This document shows positions 5,442 through 5,494 of a stretch of DNA of 29,006 nt, piece by piece. The stretch is from a virus, in IMG/VR virus record IMGVR_UViG_3300017770_000109, positions 1 through 29,006 of that record; one strand, given 5' to 3'. Both the position numbers and the translations under genes were made by a program. The notes beneath the pieces were generated by a model. That model saw nothing but the letters and a program-made list of their open reading frames with translations, had not been told where the DNA came from and did no database searches. How positions within the stretch are numbered: position 1 is the stretch's first letter; each line of letters starts with the position of its first letter.

Positions 5442-5494
5442 TGGAGCGGGAAACGAGACTCGAACTCGCGACTTCCACCTTGGCAAGGTGGTGA
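5442..5494 (-). other. attP core: 3' part of tRNA-Gly(GCC)
   Basis: Read on the minus strand, this stretch is the 3' two-thirds of a tRNA-Gly. It has the anticodon arm CCACC-TTGCCAA-GGTGG (5491-5475) with anticodon GCC, a variable region, the T arm GCGAG-TTCGAGT-CTCGT, the acceptor strand TTCCCGC, then T and an encoded CCA ending at 5442. The D arm and the 5' acceptor strand are absent: the sequence beyond 5495 is AT-rich and unrelated. This is the classic form of an attP identity block that restores the host tRNA on integration. It begins 51 bases after the int stop. The palindrome at 5475-5491 is the likely core-binding and crossover region. Confidence 0.88.

Follow-up and report, generated by a model that had tools for sequence, protein, structure and literature searches.

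A temperate marine phage with a probable attP in the 3' part of tRNA-Gly(GCC) and a paired repeat in its attachment arm and integrase leader

A partial tRNA gene next to an integrase gene raises the question of where a phage integrates, in which bacteria, and how its integrase is controlled. We examined such a locus in the window, the whole 29,006-nucleotide stretch of virus record IMGVR_UViG_3300017770_000109 (Table 1). On the minus strand, the core reads CACCACC-TTGCCAA-GGTGG-AAGTC-GCGAG-TTCGAGT-CTCGT-TTCCCGCT-CCA, comprising an anticodon arm (GCC), a variable loop, a T arm, the acceptor 3' strand and CCA. The segment starts 2 nt before the anticodon stem and has neither a D arm nor a 5' acceptor strand; ARAGORN called no tRNA in the window, as expected of a gene without these elements. 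An earlier note, made from the sequence alone, had described the same set of intact and missing arms and had placed an attP at 5442-5494, directly after int. We see the same arms and the same position, 3' of a convergent tyrosine integrase, and the range stands for 5442-5493, with the last base falling outside: at 5494, on the tRNA strand, the phage has T (GAT|CACC) and the hosts have G (GAG|CACC). Because identity between phage and host starts two bases before the anticodon stem, strand exchange probably occurs in the anticodon loop, with the crossover point placed from this comparison. Half-gene tRNAs were named here from the anticodon arm or 3' end; Rfam at a relaxed threshold gave no useful class for them.

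Table 1. Features of the attachment locus and other genes of the window
Feature	Coordinates	Strand	Basis
Sak single-strand annealing protein, early gene block before int	1357..2019	+	PF06378 2e-19
YqaJ/RecE-like exonuclease	2016..3023	+	Family match
Int-leader copy of lineage repeat, 19-31 nt before int ATG, inverted relative to arm copy	4458..4470	+	Arm/leader comparison
Tyrosine integrase, 300 aa, convergent with tRNA half	4489..5391	+	Pfam PF00589 6e-23; PHROG 1 2e-45
int + core cassette, replaced by tRNA-Val(GAC) version in sisters L051/L084, L083, L081	4490..5517		Identity drop
Int-side IHF-like site ATTCAATAGGTTA (1 mismatch to WATCAANNNNTTR), directly after CCA	5429..5441	-	13/14 lineages
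attP core: 3' 52 nt of tRNA-Gly(GCC), including CCA	5442..5493	-	Sequence reading; exact host matches
Anticodon loop TTGCCAA between stem arms CCACC/GGTGG; predicted strand-exchange (overlap) region	5480..5486	-	Predicted from symmetry and start of identity
Distal-arm IHF-like site TAAGTTACTGATT (1 mismatch to YAANNNNTTGATW), 24 nt from core	5518..5530	-	9/9 lineages
Distal-arm copy of lineage repeat GCGGTCAACGCTC	5532..5544	-	Arm/leader comparison
Giant virion-type protein, 2553 aa; backbone marker for finding sister phages	6703..14364	-	Relatedness match

The integrase carries the R-K-H-R-H/W-Y catalytic set of its family, with R138, K165, H244, R247, W270 and Y279 invariant in 11 aligned integrases. 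Virion-type genes in the window encode a PHROG 511 internal virion protein, a holin and the giant protein, which is related through partial matches to virion proteins of Cellulophaga phages phi18:3 and phi19:3 and of Pseudoalteromonas phage vB_Pun_Y3 (for the latter, 40% identity across one third of the giant protein). With virion genes present, the identity of a genomic island or satellite was rejected. T7-like marine cyanophages (PMC8776855) resemble the window in being marine and in having int and attP; their hosts and genomes differ, and the backbone relatives of the window are instead phages such as vB_Pun_Y3.

The host was sought in a collection with one genome per species, covering about 85,000 species. 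The 52-mer occurs exactly in 17 contigs or genomes, all of them marine-type gamma/proteobacterial MAGs, and in 16 of the 17 it lies inside a complete tRNA-Gly(GCC). This agrees with the gammaproteobacterial-type tRNA that had been read from the letters, and an exact match of 52 nt is far beyond chance. Two of the 17 MAGs are named as K189A clade, which NCBI places in the OMG group, and one as Pseudomonadales; host MAGs with a complete tRNA-Gly have it in one copy each, and the MAG of L020 has the half only. The host most likely belongs to the family of K189A-clade (OMG group) bacteria. The target is common to several phage lineages and therefore identifies a bacterial family, not a species. 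Through this attP, a phage group of uncultured hosts is tied to the marine K189A/OMG family, and the exact point of integration can be predicted. As an independent hint of host, a related phage contig (L107, G370:C67, of the L041 type) with a free-form attP was binned in a MAG of the same bacterial order.

The sampled molecules are non-integrated, as had been claimed, since the core is flanked by phage DNA in both directions: in the window, as in two independent contigs matching it at 99.9-100% identity, the sequence passes from int across the core and on into the block of virion genes. Integrated relatives show the junctions expected of a tRNA target. In L038 (FRAM18_bin320), a complete tRNA-Gly is followed by an int arm which, with int, is 89% identical over 486 bp to phage L093, and a complete tRNA-Gly lies directly before the int arm in L036/L024 (ERR599122_bin.66; 47% int) and in L035 (G045). 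The converse junction is found in L020 (HS5SWF_bin.10), with a displaced 3' half tRNA, a distal arm 90-94% like that of the window and a host-type 3' flank. The search for prophages with the same int beside tRNA-Gly, which the earlier note had proposed, thus yielded integrated relatives at that site and no copy of the window's own phage: a search of 207 host-family genomes and 391 from the order gave no complete window-type prophage, and the integrated junctions seen are 87-94% similar over 70-130 bp only.

A comparison with sister phages revealed that int and the core are exchanged as a unit between near-identical phages, changing the target tRNA. Over most of 150-4500 and past 5517, L051/L084 match the window at 97-100% identity, whereas inside the cassette, from 4490 to about 5510-5517, identity is only ~60%. 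Their int is 60% identical to that of the window at the amino acid level, and their core is the 3' part of tRNA-Val(GAC); L081-L083 carry the same tRNA-Val version. The difference is spread evenly over the domains (60/58/61%), with the N-terminal domain no better conserved than the others. Across the swap, the arm repeat, the distal IHF-like site and the leader stay, and the arm and leader repeats are unchanged. In the wider clade, cores found by blastn are mostly tRNA-Gly(GCC), with one Ala(GGC) (L127) and several tRNA-Ser (L087, L113-L115). Such swaps are a way for nearly identical phages to gain non-competing chromosomal sites. In L126, L127 and L130, nearly the same arm/leader repeat (CTTCTGGGTAGAAAG) accompanies different cores, tRNA-Gly in L126 and L130 and tRNA-Ala(GGC) in L127, so that the target has changed in this group as well.

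Candidate sites for IHF, recognized by their sequence, flank the core. All 9 of 9 lineages have the distal one, 13-31 nt away from the core, where shuffles predict 0.56; the int-side one, allowing at most one mismatch, occurs within 50 nt after CCA in 13/14 (0.58 expected). Adjoining the distal site is a repeat of 10-18 nt, with an inverted twin about 20-45 nt before the int start codon across lineages. Its sequence differs between lineages and agrees within each. In ungapped match scores, pairing of leader and arm from the same phage beats cross-phage pairing in 9 lineages (permutation 1/20000) and, in an extended near group of 21 lineages with near-identical leaders collapsed, reaches a matched mean of 10.6 against 7.1 for unmatched pairs (permutation 0/5000), tests that are not fully independent because the lineages are related. 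The pairing exceeds controls in direct orientation (Wilcoxon p = 3e-5) and in the int body (p = 2e-5), which have no excess themselves. Two near lineages, L110 and L111, have no clear pair at the expected positions; in the window, the int-side arm holds no third copy within 2 mismatches, and the int leader yielded no sigma-70-like promoter.

We propose the following mechanism. Int would recombine the phage 3' part of tRNA-Gly(GCC) with the identical stretch of the host's one tRNA-Gly gene, and the anticodon loop is the probable place of strand exchange. The tRNA would be made whole by the part that the phage brings, and the host's own 3' part would be displaced to the far end. The arm repeat would be the site for the N-terminal domain of Int, and its inverted copy in the leader would let Int, or a partner binding the same sequence, repress int. 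Exchange of the int and core cassette changes the target tRNA and retains the arm repeat, distal IHF-like site and leader. The proposal is of an Int arm site reused as an int operator, with Int as the candidate binding protein. Autoregulation of int through the leader copy is suggested by the match between arm and leader, and we rate it close to evenly poised. The broader model, in which a clade of convergent integrases regulates itself by a detached inverted copy of the arm site, with arm and leader co-varying and cassettes of int and core switching the target tRNA, is tentative and falls slightly short of that.

Other readings bear on both the core and the repeat. The tRNA half might be a passive remnant, a fragment captured by the phage with no working attP, given that partial tRNA genes are common in phages and that a prophage of the window's own phage was not seen. 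We consider this very improbable: the half adjoins int and is exact through CCA, the IHF-like sites on both flanks are conserved over lineages, related elements are integrated exactly at the tRNA-Gly core, and the core changes together with int in the swapped cassette. With a match of 52/52 nt in 17 genomes, a tyrosine integrase adjacent and relatives integrated, the earlier reading of an attP in the 3' part of tRNA-Gly(GCC) is borne out, and we are confident that 5442-5493 is the attP of a temperate marine phage in non-integrated form.

Since int is swapped and the repeats are unchanged, the repeat is recognized by the two integrases alike or by some other protein; the exchange fits Int, if the two integrases share arm specificity, as well as a directionality factor. 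A factor encoded by the backbone, an excisionase/RDF or a repressor, might thus bind the repeat in place of Int, setting the direction of recombination and controlling int, as Cox does in P2. The position of the repeats outside the swapped cassette is consistent with it, and TorI, an RDF acting on att and the int promoter of intS, offers a precedent (PMC2951348). However, the repeats are without significant dyad symmetry (p = 0.10 and 0.46), unlike typical dimer operators, which led us to reject a dyad-symmetric operator, and no RDF gene was identified in the window, where a 132-aa protein at 764-1162 is without a family match. We regard a backbone factor as possible and somewhat doubtful. It is unlikely that the pair merely marks the borders of cassette exchange by homologous recombination and has no binding function; the repeats do lie near both swap borders, but homology for exchange is expected to be common to lineages and much longer, whereas these copies are inverted, 10-18 nt long, lineage-specific and matched within each lineage.

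The attP, target tRNA, non-integrated state and host group are of a known kind and well supported; the attP is ordinary, and the paired repeat is the interesting part. The order of core, IHF-like site and arm repeat in the distal arm resembles the P' arm of lambda, with one arm copy seen here against several in lambda. As in tyrosine-integrase phages and islands in tRNA genes (lambda-type; Islander set, PMC4383910), int neighbours the 3' segment of a tRNA, the tRNA is made whole again on integration with a displaced fragment left behind, and IHF-like sites and an arm-type repeat stand beside the core. The window differs from these elements in that int and the tRNA half are convergent and that one arm repeat, with no array, is joined by an extra inverted copy in the int leader. 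In prophage KplE1, intS is likewise a tRNA-associated integrase, and att-bound sites also control int; Panis et al. showed that the protein binding the arm represses int there, with a promoter overlapping attL (PMC2951348). No such overlap of an int promoter with att is found in the window, where int is convergent and its leader, with the detached copy of the arm repeat, lies ~1 kb from the core. Convergent (OC-shape) integrases are expected to be expressed independently of Int (PMC2951348), an expectation with which the arm/leader pair contrasts, and a limited search of the open-access literature returned no description of a matched arm/leader repeat for them. The matched repeats suggest how convergent integrases might monitor their own abundance, a proposal open to testing, and with no data but sequence they may aid the prediction of arm sites and distal att boundaries.

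Beyond the distal arm, L020 and L034 carry bacterial rather than phage genes, a point against the main reading. In these two MAGs from one study, a half tRNA (Gly in L020, 275-6521; Val in L034, 1-9280) and a phage-type distal arm stand beside a gene order of MFS, GAPDH, TonB receptor and phytase-like, with ppx-ppk1 also in L034. One possibility is a phosphate/arsenate island that shares the att module; another is that lost prophages left these scars. Mobilization of such an island by the att module was set aside and kept as a lead only, because other genomes have this set of genes with no arms beside it. The contig of L004, a related phage, ends at the exact edge of the host-shared sequence (GGTAGAG + core), as though assembly had failed at the fork between the free path and the integrated (or host) one. 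Downstream of host tRNA-Gly genes, tandem units of ~152 bp, with the tRNA 3' end (GTTTCCCGCTCCA) repeated at the close of each, occur at L014 6394-6689 and also at L020 1-222 and L023 7584-7743, recalling the tyrT (rtT) repeats of E. coli. In L023, a phage-like int arm follows a tandem repeat copy instead of the tRNA itself.
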